A stretch of 53,365 nucleotides of DNA, taken from positions 1-53,365 of the forward strand of contig JAFZUS010000100.1 of the NCBI GenBank assembly GCA_017618275.1. Reading direction: 5' to 3'. A program made the position numbers and the translations under genes. The notes below the pieces were generated by a model. It made no database searches, was not told the origin of the DNA, and saw nothing but the letters and a program-made list of their open reading frames with translations. Source of the stretch: Prevotella sp. (GTDB lineage Bacteria > Bacteroidota > Bacteroidia > Bacteroidales > Bacteroidaceae). Below, piece by piece: positions 12,334 through 53,365 of the stretch (positions within the stretch are counted from its first letter, which is position 1; every line of letters starts with the position of its first letter).

Positions 12334-12335
<2 letters not shown>
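10152..12335 (+). CDS. recQ: ATP-dependent DNA helicase RecQ
   Basis: 727 residues. Helicase motifs: Walker A PTGGGKS, motif II DEAHCISEWGHDFRPEYR (DEAH box plus RecQ aromatic loop), SAT-like ALTATAT, motif V/VI including TGRAGRDG. The zinc-binding cysteines are in the C-R-R-K...NCGNCDNC segment. A winged-helix RQC domain and an HRDC domain (IQGVGEGKVKQPY) follow, then an acidic C-terminal region of about 100 residues. RecQ unwinds recombination intermediates and stalled forks. Spacing to clpX (28 nt) suggests read-through transcription. The long antisense reading frame beneath it is a shadow. Confidence 0.95.
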
Positions 12336-13863
<1,528 letters not shown>

Positions 13864-16731: not shown

Positions 16732-16736
16732 AATCT

Positions 16737-16772
16737 CCTAGGAATCCCTAGGATTTCCTAGGATATCCTAGT
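16737..16772. repeat. CCTAGG array, 10-nt period, surA-ostA gap
   Basis: CCTAGG occurs at 16737, 16747 and 16757 and CCTAGT at 16767, exactly 10 nt apart, filling the gap between the SurA-like stop and the OstA-like start. Equivalent arrays with different spacer bases are at 21781-21816 and 25143-25188. Confidence 0.9.
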
Positions 16773-20231: not shown

Positions 20232-20275
20232 AATCAGCAACTTTTCACTTTTCACTTTTCTCTATTCACTTTTTT
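20232..20275. repeat. Short CTTTTCA-type tandem repeat
   Basis: Pyrimidine-rich 7-8-nt units (CTTTTCA) are repeated imperfectly between mutL and the tRNA-Val promoter. Confidence 0.6.
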
Positions 20276-25138: not shown

Positions 25139-25142
25139 TAAT

Positions 25143-25188
25143 CTTAGGCAGTCCTAGGTAGTCCTAGGCAATCCTAGGTGATCCTAGA
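25143..25188. repeat. CCTAGG array, 10-nt period, rluB-asnS gap
   Basis: CTTAGG at 25143, CCTAGG at 25153, 25163 and 25173, and CCTAGA at 25183, exactly 10 nt apart. The array occupies most of the 63-nt gap and is the best preserved of the three. Confidence 0.9.
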
Positions 25189-33148: not shown

Positions 33149-33821
33149 GTATTTCAGAAAGGAATTCTGGAATTTCTATTTGTCCGTCACGGAGGTGGAT
33201 GGTGCGGTCAGTGATTTGGGCGAGGGCTTCGTCGTGGGTGACGATGACGAAGGTCTGACCAAACTGGTCGCGAAGGTCGAAGAAGAGTTGATGGAGTTCC
33301 GCCTTGTTCTTGGAGTCGAGGGAGCCAGAAGGTTCGTCGGCGAGAATGACGGCGGGGCTGTTGACGAGGGCTCGGGCTACCGCCACGCGTTGTTTCTCAC
33401 CACCGGAGAGTTCGTTGGGCTTATGTGTGGCACGGTCGGCCAGTCCCATGAAGTCGAGCAGTTCTTGTGCACGTTGTTTGGCACGTTTCTTGGAAAGCCC
33501 TGCAATATAGGCGGGAATCATAATATTTTCAATCGCCGTGAACTCCGGCAGGAGTTGATGGAACTGGAACACGAAGCCGAGATGCTGGTTGCGGAAGTCG
33601 CTCAACTTCTTTGAGGAGAGCGTGGTGGTGTCTATGCCGTCGACACATACCGTGCCAGTGTCAGGACGGTCGAGCGTGCCGATGATTTGCAATAGGGTGG
33701 TCTTGCCGGCACCTGAGGGACCGACGATACTGACGACCTCGCCACGGTCGATATGGAGGTCAATGCCTTTCAGTACCTGCAATGAGCCGAAACTCTTGGT
33801 GATATGACTAATAGTAATCAT
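33144..33821 (-). CDS. lolD: LolD-like ABC transporter ATP-binding protein
   Basis: 225 residues. Walker A GPSGAGKT (about 34-41), signature [15 protein letters not shown], Walker [12 protein letters not shown] and switch THDEAL are intact. The short length and the EPSGSLD Walker B region match the LolD/MacB-type ATPases that power lipoprotein release or efflux. No LolC/E permease is beside it, so the substrate is inferred. It follows the antiporter gene by about 20 nt on the same strand, separated by TAATTTC repeats, and may be co-transcribed with it. Confidence 0.85.
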
Positions 33822-33853
33822 AATTTCTAATTTCTAATTTCTAATTCCTAATT
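33822..33853. repeat. TAATTTC tandem repeats at the lolD start
   Basis: About four TAATTTC/TAATTCC 7-nt units lie across the antiporter stop and the gap to the LolD-like start, so a few codons of the antiporter C-terminus derive from the repeat. Confidence 0.7.
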
Positions 33854-35985
33854 TTCTTGTCTAACCAGCGTAGGATAGTATCATATATACTCTTTTCTTC
33901 ATGGTGCTGAGCCTCGGTGAAACTCATACGGTCTTCCTTCTGGTGACCATATTGGTCGGGGAAGATGATCATGAGGTTCTTGCCAGAGTAGTATTTCTGG
34001 AGTTCATCGGGCAGCCGTTCGATGGCGTTCTTATATGAGATGGTGCCTTTACGGGCTGTGATGACCACAAAGAGATGGTCGCCGGATATGCTGGTAGCCA
34101 ACTGGGGCAGTTCTTTCCAGTGTCCCATCAGGGTGTATTCAGCCCGGACGTTTGGGTGGCGGTTATTGATGTATTCGGCAATGAGTACTAATGACTCCTG
34201 ACGACCATGGAACTGGATGCGGCAGTCCAACTGTCCGGCGAGACGACTCAGACGCTCCAACCACCGGTGGAAACCTGGCTCAAACTCTGCCCTTGATGGG
34301 ACACAGACCTGGATGCGGCGCAGGGTGTTGAGCGGCTGGATGAAGCGGGTAAGGATAATCTGGCGGTTCAATCCGTTGTAGAGGCTCTGGATGAACTCGC
34401 CCCAGAACTTCGGACTGATGTCGGTATGCACGTGCATGCCCATCACGATTTCCGAACAGGCAAACTCGCGGAAGGCGTGCTTGATGCCGTTGGCGATGTT
34501 GGTGGCTAAGCGCACCTGCGTCTGCATCTGTACCTCTGTCGATGAAGCCCGTTGTTGCAGACTCTCTAATAACTGGAGTCCTTGCTTGCGTCCTACCGAG
34601 GCGTGCTGGTCGTCATAGACCACGTTCAGCCCCACCAGTTCACGGTTGAGTTTCTGGTTGCGTATGAGTAGGGCCAGACTGAGCAGTTGCGGGGCGATAT
34701 CCGGATATTTCACACAGAGCAAAATCTTCTCGTCGTCGGCCTTGGGATCTTCAGCCTGCAGGTGATTCTTCTCGTGGATGATGATCTGTTGTGAGGCATG
34801 TTCCGTCATCAGGGTGGAGATGATACAGGTGACCAGGATCATTATCACGACACCATTGAGCATGTGGTCATCAACGAGGTAGACGCCAGGAGCCACTTCC
34901 AGTCGCATGCCCACCATCACCATGGCGATGGCACCGGCAGCGTGGGCGGATGTCAGTCCGAACATCATATTACCGTCGCGTTTGGGCAGGCGGAACGCCA
35001 GACTGGAGATGTAGGCCGCCACCGCCTTGCCGAACGTGCCGAAGAAGGCAATGAGGAAGACCACCCAGAGCACCCCGGCACCGGTGAAGAGGGTGCGCAC
35101 GTTGATGAGCATGCCCACACCAATCAGGAAATAGGGGATGAACACGGCATTGCCGATGAACTCGATGCGGTTCATCAGGGGTGAGACTTTCGGTATATAC
35201 CTGTTGAGTATAAGTCCCGCCAGGAACGCACCGAAGATGCCTTCCAGTTCGATAAAATTGGAGAGGGCTGCCGAGAGGAACATGACAGCCAGTACGAAGA
35301 TAAACTGCATCACCGCGTCGCTATAACGGCGCAAGAAGTAGCGTGCCAGTTTGGGGATGAGCCAGACGGAGCCGGTAATGAAGATGATGAGTTTCAGGAG
35401 GAAGAAAAGTTGGGCTGTGAACGGTGAGAGACGGGACGACTGGTCTGCGTTGAACGAGGCCGACAGGGCGGCAATCATCACCAGGGCCAGAAACAGTGAG
35501 ATCATTGACGACCCGACGGAGAGTTGTACTGAGGAATGGCCCTGCAGGCCGTATCGGCCGATGATGGGATAGGCAATCAGCGTGTTCGAAGCCATGATAC
35601 AGCCCAAGAGAAAGGCGGCACTGCCGGAATAGCCAAGCATCGTCCGGGCCATGATGTAGGTTATGATGAGCGGTACGAAACAGGTCAGTAGTCCAAAGAT
35701 CAGGAATCTATTGGAGTTCTTCTTCAGGCTTTCCAAGTCCATCTCCAGTCCGGCGAGGAACATGATATAATAGAGTCCTACGCTACCGAGGATCTCGAAC
35801 GACATGTCGCGTTCCAGAATGTTGAAGCCGTAATGCCCCACGGCAACACCTGCCAGCACCATGCCGATGATGTGCGGGATACGCAGTTTACTCATCACAA
35901 TCGGTGCAAAGAGAATGATGAGCAACACCACAAAAAAAATCAATGTGGGGTCGGTAATGGGTAAATATGATGCCAATATTGCCAT
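33841..35985 (-). CDS. CPA2-family cation/proton antiporter with cytoplasmic C-terminal domain
   Basis: 714 residues from the ATG at 35985. About 12 membrane helices fill residues 10-400; IPHIIGMVLAGVAVGHYG and the later GLEMDLESLK and FLAGLILNRYIP segments are typical of KefB/NhaP2-like exchangers. The C-terminal about 300 residues are soluble and resemble two universal-stress-protein-like halves, as in several Bacteroidetes antiporters. It exchanges Na+ or K+ for protons; the ion is unknown. A frame extending to 36048 runs through the promoter and is rejected. The start is 8 nt after the -7 TTTG, so the mRNA is probably leaderless. Confidence 0.88.
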   Translation of the reverse strand: MAILASYLPITDPTLIFFVVLLIILFAPIVMSKLRIPHIIGMVLAGVAVGHYGFNILERDMSFEILGSVGLYYIMFLAGLEMDLESLKKNSNRFLIFGLLTCFVPLIITYIMARTMLGYSGSAAFLLGCIMASNTLIAYPIIGRYGLQGHSSVQLSVGSSMISLFLALVMIAALSASFNADQSSRLSPFTAQLFFLLKLIIFITGSVWLIPKLARYFLRRYSDAVMQFIFVLAVMFLSAALSNFIELEGIFGAFLAGLILNRYIPKVSPLMNRIEFIGNAVFIPYFLIGVGMLINVRTLFTGAGVLWVVFLIAFFGTFGKAVAAYISSLAFRLPKRDGNMMFGLTSAHAAGAIAMVMVGMRLEVAPGVYLVDDHMLNGVVIMILVTCIISTLMTEHASQQIIIHEKNHLQAEDPKADDEKILLCVKYPDIAPQLLSLALLIRNQKLNRELVGLNVVYDDQHASVGRKQGLQLLESLQQRASSTEVQMQTQVRLATNIANGIKHAFREFACSEIVMGMHVHTDISPKFWGEFIQSLYNGLNRQIILTRFIQPLNTLRRIQVCVPSRAEFEPGFHRWLERLSRLAGQLDCRIQFHGRQESLVLIAEYINNRHPNVRAEYTLMGHWKELPQLATSISGDHLFVVITARKGTISYKNAIERLPDELQKYYSGKNLMIIFPDQYGHQKEDRMSFTEAQHHEEKSIYDTILRWLDKKIRN

Positions 35986-36077: not shown

Positions 36078-37091
36078 ATGAAAGTAGCAATTGTGGGTGC
36101 GAGTGGAGCCGTGGGACAGGAGTTCCTGCGTATTCTCGCCGAGAGGAATTTCCCGATGGATGAACTGGTGTTGTTTGGCTCTGAGCGCAGCGCGGGCAGG
36201 AAATACACGTTTAAGGGTAAGGAGATTGAGGTCAAACTGTTGCAGCACAACGACGACTTCAAGGATGTGGACATCGCCTTTACCAGTGCCGGTGCTGGTA
36301 CTTCGAAGGAGTTTGCGGAGACGATTACGAAATACGGTGCTGTGATGATCGACAATTCCAGTGCTTTCCGTATGGACGATGATGTACCCTTGGTGGTGCC
36401 TGAGTGCAATGCCGAGGATGCCTTGAACCGTCCTCGTGGCATCATCGCCAACCCGAACTGCACGACCATTATGATGGTTGTTGTACTTCAGCCGTTGGAG
36501 AACATCTCGCATATCAAACGCATCCATGTGGCTTCTTATCAGAGTGCTTCTGGTGCAGGCGCTGCTGCTATGGCCGAACTACAGCAACAGTACAAGGAGA
36601 TGGTGGAAGAAGGCGAGGTGAAGACCATCAAGAAGTTCGCTCACCAGTTGGCCTACAACGTGATTCCTCAGATTGACGTGTTCCAGCCCAACGGTTATAC
36701 GAAGGAGGAGATGAAGATGTTCAACGAGACCCGTAAGATCATGCACACTGATGCCAAGTGCTCTGCGATGTGTGTCCGTGTCAGTTCGTTGCGTTCTCAC
36801 TCTGAGTCTGTTTGGATTGAGACAGAGCGTCCCATCAGCGTGGAAGAGGCTCAGAAGGCCATTGCCGCTGCACCGGGTTGCACGTTGAAGGATGATCCCG
36901 CTACGCTGACCTATCCAATGCCTTTGGAGACGGCAGGCAAGGACGATGTCTACGTGGGTCGTATCCGTAAGGACTTGAGCGATGAGAATGGTCTGACCTT
37001 CTGGCTCTCTGGCGACCAGATCCGTAAGGGTGCCGCCCTCAATGCGGTGCAGATTGCCGAGTACCTTGTTAAGGTTGGCAATGTCAAATAA
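36078..37091 (+). CDS. asd: Aspartate-semialdehyde dehydrogenase
   Basis: 337 residues from the ATG at 36078, 34 nt after the promoter palindrome. The NADP-binding loop is GASGAVGQ (8-15), the catalytic Cys128 is in NPNCTT, and the active-site His lies in [10 protein letters not shown]. It converts aspartyl phosphate to aspartate semialdehyde for lysine, threonine, methionine and diaminopimelate. An in-frame extension to 35991 overlaps the promoter and is rejected. It is followed by an unrelated small lipoprotein. Confidence 0.96.
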
Positions 37092-37200
37092 AGGTGAGAA
37101 GGTGAGAAGGTGAGAAGGGGGAAAGTGAGAAGGGAACAGAAATTTGTGAATAGTGTTTTATTACTACTCACCTTCTCACTTTCTCACCTTCTCACCTTCT
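37090..37200. repeat. Purine/pyrimidine inverted-repeat element after asd
   Basis: The left arm consists of GGTGAGAA 8-nt tandem units (37092-37133); the right arm is its pyrimidine complement (37169-37200). The centre contains GAATAGTGTT, the same ten bases that follow the purine arm of the IVP element at 51678-52242 (read on the minus strand). The architecture is alike although the repeat unit differs. It runs from just after the asd stop into the signal peptide of the next gene. Confidence 0.75.
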
Positions 37201-37625
37201 ATTCTTGTGGTACTGGTGACGATGACGGTCGTCGTCTGGGAGAATTGATTGTTGGCACCTGGCAGCGTGGCTGGGGCGAGGGCGATGTCATCATAGAAGG
37301 TGATACCGATCTGGAACCAGAGAGTTTTTCCTACGACCGATTTATCTTTATGCCCGACGGGAAATATAATGGTATGGTTCGCGACGGGTCTTTCTCTTCC
37401 TATGATGAGTTTGGAGATATCATCTACGAAGGACAATACCGTTGCGACAACAATAACCTTAAATTGGAATTTATCAATGAGGAAGGACGCAAACAGACCA
37501 TCCTCGCACAGGTCCTCTCCTTTACCGATGACACCATGACCTTGCGCTATGAAAATGAAGAGTACAACGTGACGGTGACGCTGATACTTAGAAAGACCCT
37601 CGTTCAGACCCCTGTGGCTCCCTAA
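37110..37625 (+). CDS. Small lipoprotein whose signal peptide is encoded by repeats
   Basis: Up to 171 residues. No ATG precedes the signal sequence: candidate starts are GTG at 37110, 37125 and 37146, the last giving VNSVLLLLTFSLSHLLTFYSC with a lipobox-like TFYSC. The hydrophobic segment is translated from CTCACCTTCT-type tandem repeats, the right arm of the inverted-repeat element. The mature domain (LGELIVGTWQRGWGEGD, then beta-rich sequence with FMPDGKYNGMVRDGSF) resembles lipocalin-like lipoproteins common in Bacteroidetes. The family assignment is tentative, and the start is uncertain. Confidence 0.6.
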   Translation: MRRGKVRREQKFVNSVLLLLTFSLSHLLTFYSCGTGDDDGRRLGELIVGTWQRGWGEGDVIIEGDTDLEPESFSYDRFIFMPDGKYNGMVRDGSFSSYDEFGDIIYEGQYRCDNNNLKLEFINEEGRKQTILAQVLSFTDDTMTLRYENEEYNVTVTLILRKTLVQTPVAP

Positions 37626-37645: not shown

Positions 37646-38452
37646 TTAGTCATCCTCTTCTGCGTCTGCCAGGTGATATATGCAGTCGTAGGTAATCTGA
37701 TGATAGGCTGAGAAATACCCTAAGCATCCGCCCGTGAAGTTCGGGATGGGATTGGTGCCGGTATTGTCCATGATCTGCATGGAGTAGAGATAATCGTAGG
37801 CCCGTTGGTCGATGGCACGTATCTGAATGCGTAAATTGTCGCCTTCCTGTAATACATCATTGTCACTGCTGCCTTCTCGAAAGAAGGTAAAGAGTTGTTG
37901 CAGTTCCTTGTTAGGGTTCTGGTCGTCGCGCATCACCGCCCATCGGTAGCCGATACCGTTGCGATAGATGTGCAGAAAGTACCAGTTGTCTTCATTGGGG
38001 ATATCTTGCAGTCGCAAGTCACCAAACAAGATGCGCTCTGAGGCTGCCTTCATCCAGACAAAGCGGAACTTGTTGAGTATAGGCGTCTTCTGCATCGTGG
38101 AGGTGGAGGTGAAGTGCTGTCCGTCAAGTGCCACGTCAATGGTATAGGTGGTGCCTGCCTCGCCTTTGATTGTGGAAGAACGGTAGAATCCATTACGGCT
38201 GTAGGGGATATTCCATTGTTGTCCGTTGTCGGTAGTGAGGGTGACCGTCGCGTTGCTGATGTCGCTGCTACTGTTGTTGTCGTCCATTGCATTCGTCTGG
38301 CTGACGCGCACCTCCGTGCCGTTGTTCGAAATAGAGGCCTCTACGACATAGAGCGCGTCTACTTGATGGTAGTCGAGTTCAATCTCCTTCTCACAACTTG
38401 TTAAGAGTAAAAAGGCAAAAAGGTAAAAAGGTATGATGCGCAGATGATTCAT
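37646..38452 (-). CDS. DUF4249 outer-membrane lipoprotein
   Basis: 268 residues. The signal peptide ends in the lipobox LLLTSC, followed by EKEIELDYHQVDALYVVEASISNNGTEVRVSQT, the typical DUF4249 start with its first beta strands. DUF4249 proteins are partners of a TonB-dependent receptor lacking a SusD, and the receptor gene lies 6 nt upstream on this strand. Part of the signal peptide (IPFYLFAFLLL) is written by AAAAAGGT-type repeats (38403-38432). The substrate is unknown. Confidence 0.85.
   Translation of the reverse strand: MNHLRIIPFYLFAFLLLTSCEKEIELDYHQVDALYVVEASISNNGTEVRVSQTNAMDDNNSSSDISNATVTLTTDNGQQWNIPYSRNGFYRSSTIKGEAGTTYTIDVALDGQHFTSTSTMQKTPILNKFRFVWMKAASERILFGDLRLQDIPNEDNWYFLHIYRNGIGYRWAVMRDDQNPNKELQQLFTFFREGSSDNDVLQEGDNLRIQIRAIDQRAYDYLYSMQIMDNTGTNPIPNFTGGCLGYFSAYHQITYDCIYHLADAEEDD
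38403..38432. repeat. AAAAAGGT/C 8-nt tandem repeat inside a signal-peptide coding region
   Basis: Three AAAAAGG(C/T) units, period 8, lie within the start of the DUF4249 gene. Because 8 is not a multiple of 3, changes in copy number would shift the frame of the signal peptide. The same unit type fills the recQ-guaB gap. Confidence 0.75.
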
Positions 38453-41908: not shown

Positions 41909-43974
41909 TGTTCGTCGGATGGGTCTGATGGGGTTGATGGGTCTGATGGGTTTTCTTGGGAGGCTTTCTTTGCCTCAGCCTCCAGTTCCTTGGCACGCTC
42001 TTCAGCCATGCGCTCTGCATCGGCCCGCATCTGGGCCTCAAGGAGTTCCTCTGCACGACTGATCCAGGGACGTTTGCCGAAAATACGTTCCACATCCTCG
42101 GCGAAGATGACCTCACGGTCGATCAGCAACTGAGCCAACTGGGCGTGGCCTTCGGCATGTTCCTTGAGGATGCTCTTGGCACGTTCATACTGTTCGTTGA
42201 TCATCCGAAGCACCTCATCGTCCATAATCTTGGCAGTCGTTTCGGAATAGGGCTTCTGGAACTGGTATTCTGCATTGTTGTAGTAACAGATGTTGGGCAG
42301 TTTGTCACTCATACCGGCAAAGGCAATCATGCCGTAGGCCTGTTTCGTGGTTCGCTCCAGATCGTTCATGGCGCCTGTGGAGATGGTGCCGATGAACAGT
42401 TCCTCAGCGGCACGGCCACCCAATAGCGAACACATCTCGTCGAGCATAGCCTCCTTGGTCTGTAGGACGCGTTCCTCAGGCAGATACCAGGCAGCGCCGA
42501 GAGCCTGACCGCGGGGTACGATAGAGACCTTCACCAAGGGGTTGGCAAACTCCGTGAACCATGAGATGGTGGCGTGACCTGCCTCGTGGATGGCGATGCT
42601 ACGCTTCTCTGACTGTGTCATCACCTTGGTCTTCTTCTCAAGTCCGCCGATGATACGGTCTACAGCATCAAGAAAGTCCTGTTTGCCTACCTTCTCACTG
42701 TTGTGACGGGCGGCAATGAGGGCGGCCTCGTTGCAGACATTGGCGATATCGGCACCGGAGAAGCCCGGTGTCTGACGGGCCAGGAAGTCGATGTCGACGG
42801 TATCGTCGATCTTGATGGGTTTAAGGTGAACCATAAACACCTCCTTGCGCTCATTGAGGTCAGGCAGGTCCACGTGTATCTGACGGTCGAATCGTCCTGC
42901 ACGGAGCAAGGCAGAGTCGAGCATGTCGGCACGGTTGGTGGCGGCGAGGATGATGACACCGCTGTTGGTGCCGAAGCCGTCCATCTCCGTCAACAGGGCG
43001 TTCAGTGTGTTCTCGCGCTCATCGTTGCCACCCATGGCGGGGTTCTTCGAACGGGCGCGGCCCACGGCATCTATCTCATCGATGAAGATAATACAGGGCG
43101 ACTTGGTCTTGGCCTGTGCAAAGAGGTCGCGCACACGACTGGCACCCACGCCGACAAACATCTCCACGAAGTCGGAACCCGACATCGAGAAGAACGGTAC
43201 ACCGGCCTCACCGGCTACAGCCTTGGCCAACAGCGTCTTACCCGTTCCTGGAGGACCAACCAACAGGGCACCCTTGGGAATCTTACCACCCAGTTCGGTA
43301 TATTTCTGCGGATTTTTCAGGAAGTCCACAATCTCCTGTATCTCCTGTTTGGCACCAGCCTGTCCGGCTACGTCCTTGAAGGTGATACCCAGGTCGCCGC
43401 CCTTCTCATACATCTTGGCCTTCGACTTGCCGACGCTGAACACGCCGCCTCCGCCTCCCATGCCACCGCCCATGCGGCGGATAAAGAGGAAGTACAGACC
43501 GATGATGAGGGCGAAGGGCAGTATGTTGTAGAGAATCATATTGAACAGTTCACTGTCCCTGTGGTTCTCATAACTGTAATCACCTGTAAAGGTCTTGGCT
43601 TCCTTGGCGGCATTGACGAACTCCTCCACCTGGTCGGTTGAACCGATCTCCACTTCCATATAGGGCTCGTTGCCTGTCTGCTGTGCACTCTTATGGAACA
43701 CGTCGCGGATATGCTCCGGCTTCACATACATCTTCAGGGTGTTTTGGCTCTTGTTCACCACGATTTTCGAGGCATAGCCTTTTTCCACCATCGACTTGAA
43801 GTTCGAGTAGGTGGCCTTGCTGGCGATACTGCTGTTCTGCGGACCGCCGCTGGAGAACCAGAGCAGGCCGAGGGCGAGGATGGCGATGGCGTAGATCCAG
43901 TTCATGTTGAACCGAGGCATGTTCATCTTTGGTCCGTTACCATTGGGCATCTGATTTTTGTTCTTATTGTCCAT
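41905..43974 (-). CDS. ftsH: ATP-dependent zinc metalloprotease FtsH
   Basis: 689 residues. The first membrane helix is at about 26-40, a periplasmic domain follows (about 41-145), and the second helix is at about 146-165. The AAA domain has Walker A GPPGTGKT (240-247), pore FVGVGAS and Walker B IIFIDE (295-300). The zinc site is HEAGH (463-467). The tail after residue about 655 is charged and ends in a Pro-Ser-Asp repeat ([15 protein letters not shown]) encoded by TGATGGGTC-type tandem repeats at 41911-41953. FtsH degrades membrane and short-lived proteins. It lies 1 nt after rsfS and overlaps cdsA. Confidence 0.96.
41911..41953. repeat. TGATGGGTC tandem repeat at the 3' end of ftsH
   Basis: Roughly four 9-10-nt TGATGGGTC/TTGATGGG units encode the Pro-Ser-Asp tail of FtsH just before the cdsA start. 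Confidence 0.7.
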
Positions 43975-49895: not shown

Positions 49896-49930
49896 AATGC
49901 ATAATTCACAATGCATAATGCATAATTAAG
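49896..49930. repeat. TGCATAAT-type repeats in the corA leader
   Basis: Imperfect ATGCATAAT/TTCACA units (8-10 nt, partly palindromic through TGCA) lie 18-52 nt before the corA start. Confidence 0.6.
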
Positions 49931-50068: not shown

Positions 50069-50088
50069 TAAATCTGCATTTTTTTTTC
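50051..50088. terminator. Bidirectional terminator hairpin between pepD and corA
   Basis: AAATGCAGATTT (50051-50062) pairs with AAATCTGCATTT, with T-runs on both strands. It would end leftward transcripts from pepD copy 2 before the corA promoter. Together with the 112-nt element and the corA leader it fills the 325-nt gap 49879-50203. Confidence 0.85.
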
Positions 50089-50199
50089 GTGGAGTGTGGA
50101 GTGAGGAGTGTGGAGTGAGATTACCTTGCAATGAATTATCAGTTGCAGAATTTATAGCAGAACTATTCTCACTCCTCACTTCCCACTCCTCACTCCTCG
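50088..50199. mobile_element. 112-nt inverted-repeat element, copy A (MITE-like)
   Basis: CG-ended element of exactly 112 nt. The left arm is built of GGAGTGT/GGAGTGA 7-nt units, the right arm of the complementary CACTCC units; the inner borders are GAGTGAGATTAC and GCAGAACTATTCTC. It is about 80% identical by eye to copy B (52992-53103), with divergence concentrated in the central 27 nt. It sits between the pepD copy 2 stop and the terminator. A 77-residue frame read through it is not a gene. Confidence 0.85.
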
Positions 50200-50203
50200 A
50201 TAA

Positions 50204-51661
50204 CTATTTCTCCGGGATATCCTCAAGCGTCTTCTTCAGGAGTGTCCAGAAGGGCTCGACAGTCTTGATGAGGGCGCGCTCCGTGGTGGTGTGAGGCGAC
50301 TTCATCGTGGGACCGAAACTGACCACGTCGAGGTGCGGATACTTGCCGAGGATGATGGAACACTCCAGTCCGGCATGGTCTACCTGGATGATGCCGTCCT
50401 CGCCAAAGAGATCCTTGTATTCCTTCAGCAACAGGTGCAGGATAGGGGACTCTGGATTGGGGTCCCAGCCGCCATACGAGCCGGCAGTCTCTACCTTCAT
50501 GCCTGCCATATTGAAACAACTCTCCAAGGTTTTCACAATGTAGTCTTTCATATCCTCGCGACTGGAGCGGGCCAGGATCTGCAACGAAGCCTTACCACCT
50601 CCGATATTGATAATGGCGAGGTTTGAAGAGGTCTCGACGACACTGGGGTAGGAGGGGATCATACGGATGACACCGTCGTGACAGCCGTAGATGGCATTGA
50701 TGAGGTTGTCCTGAATCTCAACAGGCACCTCCATCTTTGGCGTTTCTACATCCTCGCAGATCACTTCGATACCGCTTTCGATGCCTTTATACTCGTCGGT
50801 GAAATCCTCGAGCCAGTCTTGGGCGAGTTCTTTCAGGAGGGCGACATTGTCTTTCGGTAACGTCAGTACTGCCTCTGCCTTGAAGGGGATGGCGTTACGC
50901 ATGTTGCCACCCTGCCAGGATGCCAAGCGGGCCTCACATTCCTCGATGGCCTCACGGACTAAACGGACTAACAACTTATTGGCATTGCCACGTCCTTCGT
51001 GGATCTCCAGTCCGGAGTGTCCGCCGCGCAGTCCTTTTACCGTCACCTTCACAGCAGCATCCTCTGGATCGGTCTCTGCTTCCTGATAGTCTAAGGTGGC
51101 AGTCACGTCGATACCTCCGGCTGAGCCGATGACGAACTTGCCCCAGTGTTCAGAGTCGAGGTTCATCAGGATATCGCCATTGAGTTCGCCTGCGGGCAGG
51201 GCATTGGCACCAAACATGCCTGTCTCTTCATCGGCAGTGATGAGGGCTTCGATAGGACCGTGCTTCAAGGTCTTATCCTCCATGATAGACATGATGGAAG
51301 CGACACCCAGGCCATTGTCGGCACCGAGGGTTGTCCCCTTGGCCTTCACCCACTCGCCGTCAATCCAAGGTTGGATGGGATCAGTCTCGAAGTTATGGGT
51401 ACTCTCGGGTGTCTTCTGTGGCACCATGTCCATGTGTGCCTGCAGGATCACCCCCTTTTTCTTCTCCATTCCTGGAGAGGCGGGCTTACGCATCACGATG
51501 TTGTCGGCAGGATCCTTGAAGGCCTCGACACCCGCCTGTTTGGCAAAGTCGAGCAGGAACTGCTGGATTTTCTCTAAATGTCCGCTGGGGCGCGGTACTT
51601 GTGTCAGTGCATAGAAGTTCTTCCAGATGCACGCTGGGTTTAAGTTTTGAATTTCGTTCAT
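50204..51661 (-). CDS. pepD: PepD-type (M20C) aminoacyl-histidine dipeptidase, copy 2
   Basis: 485 residues. Metal and catalytic motifs: LQAHMDMVPQK, LGADNGLGVASIM, TADEETGMFGA, NLDSEHWG and SPHTTTERALIKTVEPFW. It is closer to the standard PepD consensus than the copy at 45500-46936. It hydrolyses dipeptides such as Xaa-His in the cytoplasm. The gene follows the four-helix-bundle element; the left arm of that element lies 16 nt before its start codon, so the element probably supplies or interrupts its upstream region. The copy A element sits 4 nt beyond its stop. Confidence 0.95.
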   Translation of the reverse strand: MNEIQNLNPACIWKNFYALTQVPRPSGHLEKIQQFLLDFAKQAGVEAFKDPADNIVMRKPASPGMEKKKGVILQAHMDMVPQKTPESTHNFETDPIQPWIDGEWVKAKGTTLGADNGLGVASIMSIMEDKTLKHGPIEALITADEETGMFGANALPAGELNGDILMNLDSEHWGKFVIGSAGGIDVTATLDYQEAETDPEDAAVKVTVKGLRGGHSGLEIHEGRGNANKLLVRLVREAIEECEARLASWQGGNMRNAIPFKAEAVLTLPKDNVALLKELAQDWLEDFTDEYKGIESGIEVICEDVETPKMEVPVEIQDNLINAIYGCHDGVIRMIPSYPSVVETSSNLAIINIGGGKASLQILARSSREDMKDYIVKTLESCFNMAGMKVETAGSYGGWDPNPESPILHLLLKEYKDLFGEDGIIQVDHAGLECSIILGKYPHLDVVSFGPTMKSPHTTTERALIKTVEPFWTLLKKTLEDIPEK

Positions 51662-51732
51662 AGATTTTTGTTTTTTTGAGGAGTGAGGAGTGTGGAGTGT
51701 GGAGTGAGAATACTCCAGTCCTTAAAATTCGA

Positions 51733-52113
51733 TCACCCTTGATTAATATTTAATTTATCGTTTAATGATTTTCTAAGTCCAGACATAACTCTTCCAAGTC
51801 TATCAGATATTTCTTCAGCATTTTGCAGTTCTTCCAATGTAATATATCCAAGAGATTCTGAAATGTCCAATTGACATAATGCTTCTGTCATCGATGCGTA
51901 GGAAATCTCAAGGAAATGTACTCTTTCTTTAATTGCCATGCGCCCCATCCCCTCTGCGATATTGGATGGTACAGAGACTGTTGCTCTTCTAAGTTGGTCG
52001 CATAGTGCATATTGCTCGAAAGGAGGAAATTTCCTAATTAAAGAATAAACATAGATAGTAAATTCCTTCGCGATTTTATACGCATCAAGTTTTTTGTAAT
52101 AGAAATCGTTCAT
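51733..52113 (-). CDS. Four-helix-bundle protein of the IVP/S23 family
   Basis: 126 residues from the ATG at 52113, preceded by AAAGAG; an extension to 52173 runs into the inverted repeat and is rejected. The family pattern is clear: YYKKLDAYKIAKEFTIYVYSLIRKFPPFEQYALCDQLRRATVSVPSNIAEGMGR (about 5-58), then helices ending in KSLNDKLN. The family was first seen in intervening sequences of 23S rRNA and includes the Avd accessory proteins of diversity-generating retroelements; it binds nucleic acid through a basic surface. A+T-richer than its neighbours. The setting inside inverted repeats suggests that it acts on the element or its RNA. Confidence 0.88.
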   Translation of the reverse strand: MNDFYYKKLDAYKIAKEFTIYVYSLIRKFPPFEQYALCDQLRRATVSVPSNIAEGMGRMAIKERVHFLEISYASMTEALCQLDISESLGYITLEELQNAEEISDRLGRVMSGLRKSLNDKLNINQG

Positions 52114-52150
52114 CTCTTTATCATTAATTATCTTTAGCAACACTATTCTC

Positions 52151-52234
52151 ACTCCACACTCCTCACTCCACACTCCTCACTCCACACTCCTCACTCCACA
52201 CTCCTCACTCCACACTCCTCACTCCACACTCCTC
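52151..52234. repeat. Six perfect 14-nt tandem repeats (ACTCCACACTCCTC)
   Basis: Units begin at 52151, 52165, 52179, 52193, 52207 and 52221, with a partial copy to 52242. The array forms the right arm of the IVP element and its last third encodes the C-terminus of the flippase-like protein. The unit length is not a multiple of three. Confidence 0.95.
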
Positions 52235-53329
52235 ACTCCTCGCCACTCTTTTCGTAAACGAGAGGACGGCCCAGGCATAGACTCCTAAGGCAATCACCAG
52301 AAGGGTCTGCACGGTATGTACGATGAGCACAAACCAAAGGGCCTGTTCGTCGGCCACACCATAGAGTATCAACATGGTCTTGATGGCGAAATGCCAGGGA
52401 CCTGCACCGTTGGGGGTGGGTACGATAACGGCAAAGTTGGCCACCACAAAAGAGACCAGCGCACAACCGATACCAAGGTTCGCCGTGAAGTCGAAGCAGA
52501 AGAAGGTGAGGTAGTAATGCAGGAAGTACATCACCCAGATGCCGACGGAGAAAAAGAGGTAGAGCGGCAGGTTTTTGACATCCCGTAGGGAGAGCACGCC
52601 TTCCCAGATGCCACTCAACGTCATCTTTACCTTATTATATATAGAGAGGTTCTTCAGCAACAAGTGTAACAGGATAAGGGCTGCCGCGCCGCAAATCGCC
52701 GTCACCAGCCAACCTGTTAATGAGAAACCTTCTAAGATACGATCGAATGAGGTGCCTGTTTTTTTGAAGAAAGTGCCAAAGACACTCATCTCTATGAGCA
52801 GGATAATGCCTGAGTAGAGCATCACGATCAGTGTGTCGACGGCGCGTTCTGTCACTACCGTCCCTAATGCCTTTGAGAATGACACCCCGTCGTAACGCTT
52901 CAACACGGCGCAGCGGGAGAACTCACCAATGCGGGGGATTACCAGACTGGCCGCATACGAGATGAATACGGCATGTATGCAGGTTGATGTTCGAGGAGTG
53001 TGGAGTGTGGAGTGAGGAGTGAGATTACTTTGCTGAGAAATATTAGCAGCAAATTCATTTGCAGAACTATTCTCACTCCTCACTCCACACTCCTCACTCC
53101 TCGTAACTATCGGCTCCAGAGTCTGCTTCCAACGCCAGCCACGGAACATCTGTGCCAAGATGCCGAAAGGAAACGAGAGCAGCATCCATGTCCAGTCCAT
53201 CTCCTCCGTCAGTACATGACTGATTGTCGAGAAGTCCTCGCCACGGTACATCCACCACAAAATGGCACCACCCAGAATAAAGGGCAGCACAATCTTCGCG
53301 ACGTTTCCGAGTATGCTTTTCGGTTCCAT
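52205..53329 (-). CDS. Lysylphosphatidylglycerol-synthase-TM / YbhN-like membrane protein with an in-frame repeat insertion
   Basis: 374 residues from the ATG at 53329; an extension to 53356 passes through the promoter. About seven to eight membrane helices and the family segment FISYAASLVIPRIGEFSRCAVLKRYDGVSFSKALGTVVTERAVD (about 122-165) identify the UPF0104/flippase-like family. Residues about 75-114 (VTRSEECGVRSEN...HSTLHTPRTS) are translated from the 112-nt element copy B; relatives usually have only a short loop between LEP and the next helix. The C-terminus (RSEECGVRSVE) is encoded by the right arm of the IVP element. The message is probably leaderless. Function in lipid or glycan movement is inferred. 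Confidence 0.82.
   Translation of the reverse strand: MEPKSILGNVAKIVLPFILGGAILWWMYRGEDFSTISHVLTEEMDWTWMLLSFPFGILAQMFRGWRWKQTLEPIVTRSEECGVRSENSSANEFAANISQQSNLTPHSTLHTPRTSTCIHAVFISYAASLVIPRIGEFSRCAVLKRYDGVSFSKALGTVVTERAVDTLIVMLYSGIILLIEMSVFGTFFKKTGTSFDRILEGFSLTGWLVTAICGAAALILLHLLLKNLSIYNKVKMTLSGIWEGVLSLRDVKNLPLYLFFSVGIWVMYFLHYYLTFFCFDFTANLGIGCALVSFVVANFAVIVPTPNGAGPWHFAIKTMLILYGVADEQALWFVLIVHTVQTLLVIALGVYAWAVLSFTKRVARSEECGVRSVE
52992..53103. mobile_element. 112-nt inverted-repeat element, copy B, inside the flippase-like gene
   Basis: Exactly 112 nt with CG ends, like copy A. Arms of about 36 nt are inverted repeats of GGAGTGN units with one internal mismatch over the outer 29 nt. It lies within the flippase-like coding region and leaves the frame open; with two flanking bases it accounts for about 38 extra codons. 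Confidence 0.88.
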
Positions 53330-53332
53330 TGG

Positions 53333-53342
53333 TGCAAAGGTA
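53333..53342 (-). promoter_or_regulatory. -7 element (TACCTTTGCA) for the flippase-like gene
   Basis: The complement strand reads TACCTTTGCA, and the ATG at 53329 lies 5 nt after its TTTG, so the start codon is at or next to the predicted transcription start. An ATTCATAA repeat follows to the window end. Confidence 0.7.
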
Positions 53343-53365
53343 CATAAATAATTCATAATTCATAA

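Follow-up and report, generated by a model that had tools for sequence, protein, structure and literature searches.

Introduction

The intervening sequences of 23S rRNA, of the Leptospira and Coxiella type, contain one small open reading frame (ORF) of the IVP (S23) protein family, and their terminal inverted repeats form a long stem. In Coxiella, the rRNA intervening sequence has a 28-bp stem and tandem heptamers ahead of the S23p ORF, and a mobile origin of such sequences has been suggested on the basis of earlier work (PMC4990558). Here, a 53,365-nt stretch of Prevotella sp. DNA (contig C179 of genome G000 in our sample; the whole stretch is called the window) was found to carry a gene of the same protein family between inverted arrays of a heptanucleotide, GGAGTGN. 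Unlike the rRNA intervening sequences, this unit and its relatives lie between or inside protein genes, use a repeat word that is specific to the lineage, and are accompanied by scattered gene-less copies. We consider it probable (roughly 0.6) that the window unit is a member of a widespread family of mobile elements, in which the IVP protein recognises its own repeat and helps the array-bounded DNA to spread.

Other described systems share some features with this unit. In REPIN/RAYT systems, short inverted-repeat elements are scattered in trans and a single gene is flanked by the same repeats. An earlier note on this DNA had drawn this analogy, which we retain as a way of working and not as membership; in contrast to those systems, only the IVP domain and no RAYT (HUH) protein was found by profile matches in the enclosed gene, the repeats are tandem 7–8-nt arrays and copies occur in frame in coding genes. 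The Rickettsia palindromic elements (RPEs) are palindromes of ∼100–150 nt located in frame within protein genes, as is one of the window hairpins; to our knowledge, they have neither a companion gene nor heptad arms. Miniature inverted-repeat transposable elements and DNA transposons have terminal inverted repeats as well. The Avd protein of diversity-generating retroelements is a homologous four-helix-bundle ring protein; unlike in those retroelements, no reverse transcriptase is adjacent here, the sole RVT_1 match of G000 being on contig C182 and not on the window contig.

Tandem heptamers have also been described in bacteria, such as the STRR of cyanobacteria, GGGAATC of Xanthomonas and TAACTGA of Beggiatoaceae (PMC4692102, PMC4679880). 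Like the arrays reported here, they are tandem, partly arranged as inverted pairs, scattered and of unexplained origin, and they differ in that they are never tied to IVP genes in the available parts of these two sources (PMC4692102, PMC4679880). Heptanucleotide repeats are stated to be the most abundant class of 5–11-nt tandem repeats in most bacterial genomes, with no agreed cause, and a mobile protein that binds the repeats was called for and, in the part of this source at hand, none was named (PMC4679880). IVP genes located between cas genes were reported in 18 cases (PMC3936711). Our search, which had most subscription journals and bioRxiv outside its reach, found no paper in which heptad arms are presented as a general feature of IVP genes.

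Results

The window unit and its gene-less hairpins

The window gene matched the 23S_rRNA_IVP family (PF05635, E 2.6e-29; TIGR02436, E 5.1e-28). The gene, its arms and the related gene-less hairpins are located as follows.

51733..52113, minus strand: IVP/four-helix-bundle gene, counted from its first ATG (at 52113)
51675..51711, no strand: GGAGTGN heptad array, the arm 3′ of the gene
52148..52244, no strand: long inverted GGAGTGN array, the arm 5′ of the gene
50086..50199, no strand: gene-less GGAGTGN hairpin, adjoining the 3′ end of a dipeptidase-like ORF (50204–51661, minus strand)
52990..53103, no strand: gene-less GGAGTGN hairpin, in frame within the LPG_synthase_TM ORF
52205..53356, minus strand: host ORF (PF03706), which holds the in-frame hairpin and has its stop codon within the IVP element arm

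The open frame of the IVP gene spans 51733–52173 on the minus strand and thus runs past 52113 into the arm. The arm units are GGAGTGA/T, the outer 22 nt are identical between the left and right arrays, and the inner border sequence GGAGTGAGAATA is present in both arms, confirming the earlier description of an IVP gene enclosed in a repeat-armed hairpin. Arm comparison and folding together showed that the terminal inverted repeats of the unit can form a stem, and the folding z of the whole unit was −5.4 against dinucleotide shuffles, none of which was as good. Both gene-less hairpins described nearby with similar borders were also recovered; they have common arms and much of the loop in common, and their folding z was −7.2 (50086–50199) and −11.7 (52990–53103), again with no shuffle as good. 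The product of the host ORF at 52205–53356, whose stop codon is in the arm, has the C-terminus ...ARSEECGVRSVE. The unit does not lie inside a 23S rRNA gene, as two tRNA matches were the only ones obtained across the window.

Inverted arms surround IVP genes in the genome and the genus

Eight PF05635 matches were found in G000, of which six were above the cut-off. Matched inverted arms (scores 25 to 33) surround five of these six genes, and the sixth abuts a contig edge and has one array on its one existing side. Each gene has its own word, viz. GGAGTGN, CAATGCA/TAATGCA, AAGGTGAG (8 nt), TAGAGTG, TAATTAG and, for the sixth, a AAGTTAAG-like unit. Among 40 genomes of the genus, 31 have an over-cut-off match, and 82 of the 91 such places entered the arm count; those excluded comprised three fragments from G014, a gene containing a stop codon (G033:C60) and five long proteins, which were moved to a long-protein set. 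An inverted arm pair with a score of ≥14 within 300 nt of the gene was present at 71/82 IVP genes as compared to 8/300 mismatched flank pairs, in which the left flank of one gene was paired with the right flank of another. Random ORFs with comparable inverted arms numbered 1/200, 1/200 and 2/200 in three genomes (4/600), one of the two counts of 1/200 being that of a 400-kb sample of G000. Furthermore, five pairs of proteins that are 69–82% identical (L065/L104, L096/L104, L091/L004, L086/L005 and L072/L054) have like arms in unlike flanks, and therefore the gene and its arms have travelled together.

The unit is mostly 7 or 8 nt in the genus, and a clade with a GRAGTTA core has units of 9, 10 or 12 nt. 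Over all the pairs measured, the median array length came to 31 nt where the unit has 7 nt (76 pairs) and to 33 nt where it has 8 nt (28 pairs), and arrays reach up to 150 nt; given the near-equal medians, the total length looks more constant than the unit number. The inward strand is G-rich, with a GC skew above zero in 94/111 5′ arms and below zero in 97/111 3′ arms. Mapped onto the protein tree, the label for period 7 (36 rows) required 6 changes as compared to 19.5 when shuffled, and that for period 8 (21 rows) required 7 as compared to 17.5, with 0/500 shuffles as low in either case. Because many IVP genes of the genus are orthologues at one locus, a count was also made with one gene kept per locus (49/82), and this gave 3 changes against 9.9 for both labels (0/500). 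Thus, the unit length follows the IVP protein tree.

Armed IVP genes beyond the genus

The wider sample comprised ten cyanobacterial plasmid loci together with the best 80 of at least 584 confirmed places in a species collection, and inverted arms were found at 63/90 of these loci as compared to 0/300 in the control. The armed loci included 10/10 of the cyanobacterial plasmid, 24/39 of the Bacteroidota-named and 29/39 of the other bacterial ones, the last with Pseudomonadota, Nitrospirota, Bacillota, Chloroflexota, Patescibacteria and Verrucomicrobiota among them. The best flank period was 7 or 8 in 85/90 loci of the same sample. A separate set of 30 Bacteroidota loci was picked by best Pfam score and held 33 ORFs, most of which still have a best period of 7 or 8; three weak secondary ORFs were removed from it before pooling. 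When 202 genes were pooled, the best period in the 200-nt near flanks was 7 or 8 in 178 of 196 usable cases, as compared to 41 of 185 usable far flanks taken 900–1100 nt out (Fisher p 1e-45). The family has a common anatomy and occurs across a broad range of bacteria. The earlier note had expected IVP genes to be bounded by GGAGTGN inverted repeats; this was borne out for short-unit arrays as such (71/82 in the genus, 63/90 in the wider sample), whereas fixed GGAGTGN arms for all IVP genes were ruled out, the word and its length (7, 8 and sometimes 9, 10 or 12 nt) being specific to the lineage. Outside the genus, L295 has clear 9-nt (AAGTTGTTG) and L347 clear 13-nt (TTAGAGCTAGAGG) arms around their IVP genes.

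Some more specific associations were also examined. The IVP gene as a phage gene was set aside, no match being present in 50,697 phage records. Viral contigs held 34 loci, of which 24/34 have arms, in a set that includes near-duplicates. Insertion mostly into rRNA was likewise not seen in the sample, where 0/20 IVP loci had an Rfam match of any kind, rRNA included. A link to the Xanthomonas GGGAATC or Beggiatoaceae TAACTGA repeats was not found either; none of the 202 pooled genes has arms of these words, and one has a CCCCAATCCCC stretch.

Empty sites of the units in related replicons

Five IVP units on cyanobacterial plasmids were set against ten relatives that lack the insertion, and empty sites were found for all five and also for gene-less copies. 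The clearest case is Nostoc C052 pC052_D (L272) against C057 (L364), in which the unit follows the stop codon of one gene and precedes the start of its neighbour and the arrays are its limits. Conversely, a gene-less unit is present in the sister plasmids L360, L361, L363 and L364 at a site that is empty in L272 and L362. In L361 and L363, a second unit is nested at the same place with different loops. The nested gene-less unit of L361 (insert positions ∼100–260) has a structured loop of ∼100 nt, unlike that of L363, which might be tRNA-like or another RNA cargo, and in L355 a local likeness between the target and the arm end (AAAATTG) was noticed.

IVP units of three cyanobacterial plasmids (L264, L268 and L270) lie between cas6 and cas4 or between cas10 and cmr3, with heptad or octad arms. 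In Picosynechococcus PCC 7003, cas10 and cmr3 are separated by a unit; on the PCC 7002 plasmid, the same junction is unoccupied. With their arms and this unoccupied junction in a relative, the cas-locus units look like passengers. These comparisons, which the earlier note had called for, established that the unit in its entirety is an insertion whose sites are empty in relatives.

Gene-less copies, host genes and single arms

Gene-less copies of the window repeat are scattered elsewhere in G000, which has 33 GGAGTGN matches. When 400 kb per genome was searched de novo for tandem arrays (≥28 nt), there were 21 of period 7 and 10 of period 8 in G000, 30 and 22 in G028, and 0 and 0 in G024, other periods numbering at most 5. 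PF05635 matches in the same genomes were eight in G000, 15 (10 over cut-off) in G028 and none in G024. The octad GTGAGAAR had 67 matches in G000, 18 in G004 and 0 in the 38 other genomes, and G000 and G004 are the two genomes whose fetched IVP gene carries this octad (chance 1 in 780).

The hairpin within the LPG-synthase-like gene lies in a loop that is uninterrupted in 17/29 orthologues, and at this loop five other orthologues have repeat-type inserts of their own and seven have other short inserts. Further in-frame insertions in G000 were found in an ABC-ATPase-like gene and a BFD/NAD(P)-oxidoreductase-like gene, and in two more host genes which, from their sequence, we take to be HflX-like and ClpB-like (Clp middle-domain-like). 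In the oxidoreductase-like gene (contig C170), the arms enclose 14 residues (EGENARVIGVEAED) that are also present in 11 orthologues, with ∼42 nt inserted before this native stretch and 36 nt after it. Similarly, the arms in a methyltransferase-like gene of G018 enclose the conserved native stretch SPQVYEKIAYRGSTEGVIAVAKCKDHS, present in 11 aligned orthologues. In G025, the orthologous gene carries a single arm, made of a related word, at the left site, and its right site is bare, which suggests that a second arm may be added after the first. Ten loci fetched from G018 and G035 contained eleven GGAGTGN-type sites, three with two good arms, one with a degenerate partner and seven with a single arm; at the seven, no matching array was found in the fetched stretch, and two have a short remnant. 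The single-arm sites and the arms flanking native stretches indicate that an arm can be placed alone and that two arms can be placed on either side of native DNA.

The IVP protein and a sister family

A sequence search returned two solved relatives, 2GSC (XCC0516 of Xanthomonas campestris) and 2RLD, with five chains each, and homology of the window protein to Avd was seen in a bAvd match (E 5e-4). A title cited in PMC10053308 and PMC3936711 describes XCC0516 as an assembly of five four-helix bundles, and Avd (4DWL) and 2GSC are given as homologous in PMC10053308. The residues invariant in 17 aligned sequences include Q40, R43, S47, N51, E54, G55, R58, S74 and E77 (window numbering). Long four-helix-bundle proteins of the genus (∼185–270 aa) tend towards a best flank period of 9 or 10 (15/21 loci), their units often having a palindromic core such as CCTAGG or ACTATAG, and one that was tested reaches the cut-off of TIGR04258 (suffix). 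The window itself has CCTAGG-core 10-nt arrays at 16736–16772 and 25140–25187, made of the unit of a long gene on contig C79 of G000 (L008).

Other arrays in the window

Two more features of the window correspond to other IVP genes of the same genome.

37088..37206, no strand: gene-less octad (AAGGTGAG) hairpin, assigned to the same family as the contig C94 IVP gene
49900..49927, no strand: heptad array TAATGCA/CAATGCA, made of the word that flanks the contig C82 IVP gene

The octad hairpin is the third hairpin of the window and was missing from the list of the earlier note. More period-7 or period-8 arrays of other words are located at 33816–33855, 12334–12370, 20238–20270 and 38406–38436, and a 9-nt-period array (GTCGGATGG-like) lies within coding sequence at 41914–41953.

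Discussion

One gene, inverted ends made of its own word, gene-less followers and empty sites in relatives together form the pattern of a mobile element with satellites acted on in trans. In plan, a member of the family has a single IVP gene, and its ends are inverted ∼32-nt arrays built from short units, usually of 7 or 8 nt and more rarely of 9, 10 or 12. The IVP ring of five four-helix bundles may act in trans by recognising its own repeat, either as a single strand or as a hairpin, with about one subunit per repeat unit; the ring, the regular spacing and the link of protein to unit suggest that it binds several units of its own word. In doing so, the protein could assist host enzymes in copying array-bounded DNA to new sites, and host polymerases copying from an existing array are the preferred, though unproved, agent. 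New 3′ ends at two staggered nicks, each extended with the same word, would give arms around native sequence, and such arms, like the lone arms and the gene-less hairpins, might be non-autonomous or partial products. As the arms pair and are mostly without stop codons, in-frame copies in genes would be tolerated, and copies in rRNA would become intervening sequences excised by RNase III. The family is best read as including the classical rRNA intervening sequences.

Processing at the RNA level may indeed be all that the system does, RNase III and the IVP protein processing or protecting a transcript hairpin and DNA movement being rare and incidental. The hairpins are very stable, the arms leave host-gene reading frames open, and RNase III has been found to cleave, in vitro, intervening sequences of rRNA that belong to the same gene family (PMC4990558). 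We nevertheless regard this account as unlikely, because many recent-looking copies of the same repeat at unrelated sites and the clean empty sites need a step at the DNA level, an Rfam match was absent from all 20 sampled IVP loci, and cutting without rejoining would destroy the host mRNA. That the IVP protein is itself an enzyme, i.e. a new type of transposase or nickase cutting at the repeat arms, appeared rather improbable. As expected for a transposase, it is the sole gene in most units and the gene-less derivatives share its ends, and acidic or polar residues recur as invariant (E33, N51, E54 and E77, window numbering); against this, its characterised relative Avd is an accessory protein and is not known to be an enzyme, a constant duplication was not seen at the target sites, and transposition would not be expected to leave arms around native sequence.

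An Avd-like role would have the IVP protein recruit a resident reverse transcriptase, which primes at nicks and adds the arrays in trans, so that a lone arm results from one nick, and inverted arms flanking native DNA result from two that are staggered. Such retro-mobility would also account for the constant polarity of the arms with their G-rich strand inward, yet we hold it very improbable, since an RVT_1 match was present in only 16/40 genomes of the genus and was absent from G028, G008 and G004, which have 15, 11 and 6 PF05635 matches, respectively, and many arrays. A reverse transcriptase is, on the evidence of these three genomes, not needed for the presence of the element. It is likewise very hard to regard the arrays as ordinary products of polymerase slippage in which IVP genes merely settle. 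Array lengths do vary (31 nt median, up to 150 nt) and bacterial heptanucleotide repeats have been treated as simple repeats (PMC4679880, PMC4692102), whereas slippage leaves unexplained why the two sides of the gene have matched, inverted arms, why the unit length follows the protein, why the IVP-less G024 has 0 heptad or octad arrays in 400 kb, and why protein and arms move jointly to new loci.

A bolder form of the favoured mobile-element reading is that of a pan-bacterial selfish class, in which a non-enzymatic ring reads the word, in DNA or RNA, by counting, host polymerases write the word at both ends, and heptanucleotide repeats are its footprint. With one subunit per unit, each lineage would evolve its own word of fixed length, and what lies between the two nicks could be the gene of the element, nothing, or native host sequence. 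This form we put forward tentatively, with the odds somewhat against it.

Several observations weigh against the mobile-element reading. Arms around native host sequence and lone arms do not fit a simple cut-and-paste, and no constant target-site duplication was seen by eye in the ten empty-site comparisons, which are ∼85–93% identical with diverged flanks. The arm threshold was reached by 12/33 ORFs in the 30 Bacteroidota loci (2/300 in the control) and by 0/2 archaeal loci of the wider sample. The earlier note had held that gene-bearing genomes should be richer in copies and that arms equally common in IVP-free genomes would speak against its proposal; the octad follows the gene, being present in 2/40 genomes only, both with an octad IVP gene, but two genomes without a PF05635 match depart from this. 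One is G018 (90% complete, 340 contigs), with 23 GGAGTGN matches, low numbers of which are also present in G014 (2), G035 (2) and G007 (1). The other is G010 (99% complete, 3 contigs), with 35 matches of GTTGAGN, a pattern whose control was not clean as the reversed pattern matches too. No IVP-like ORF was found in seven fetched G010 stretches (L365–L371), which contain many GTTGAGN arrays, some as inverted pairs, and may represent a relic or a different companion gene.

The present study ties IVP genes to heptanucleotide repeats, since the gene tends to sit between 7- or 8-nt arrays wherever this could be tested. The IVP proteins, whose structures have been solved for years while a function was lacking, are thereby linked with these repeats, whose recognition, copying and processing as RNA are here inferred. 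Both the rRNA intervening sequences and the IVP genes of CRISPR loci may be recast as cases in which a single, broader family of elements has inserted. SEECGVRSE and similar odd in-frame stretches of bacterial proteins would be insertions and not protein domains.

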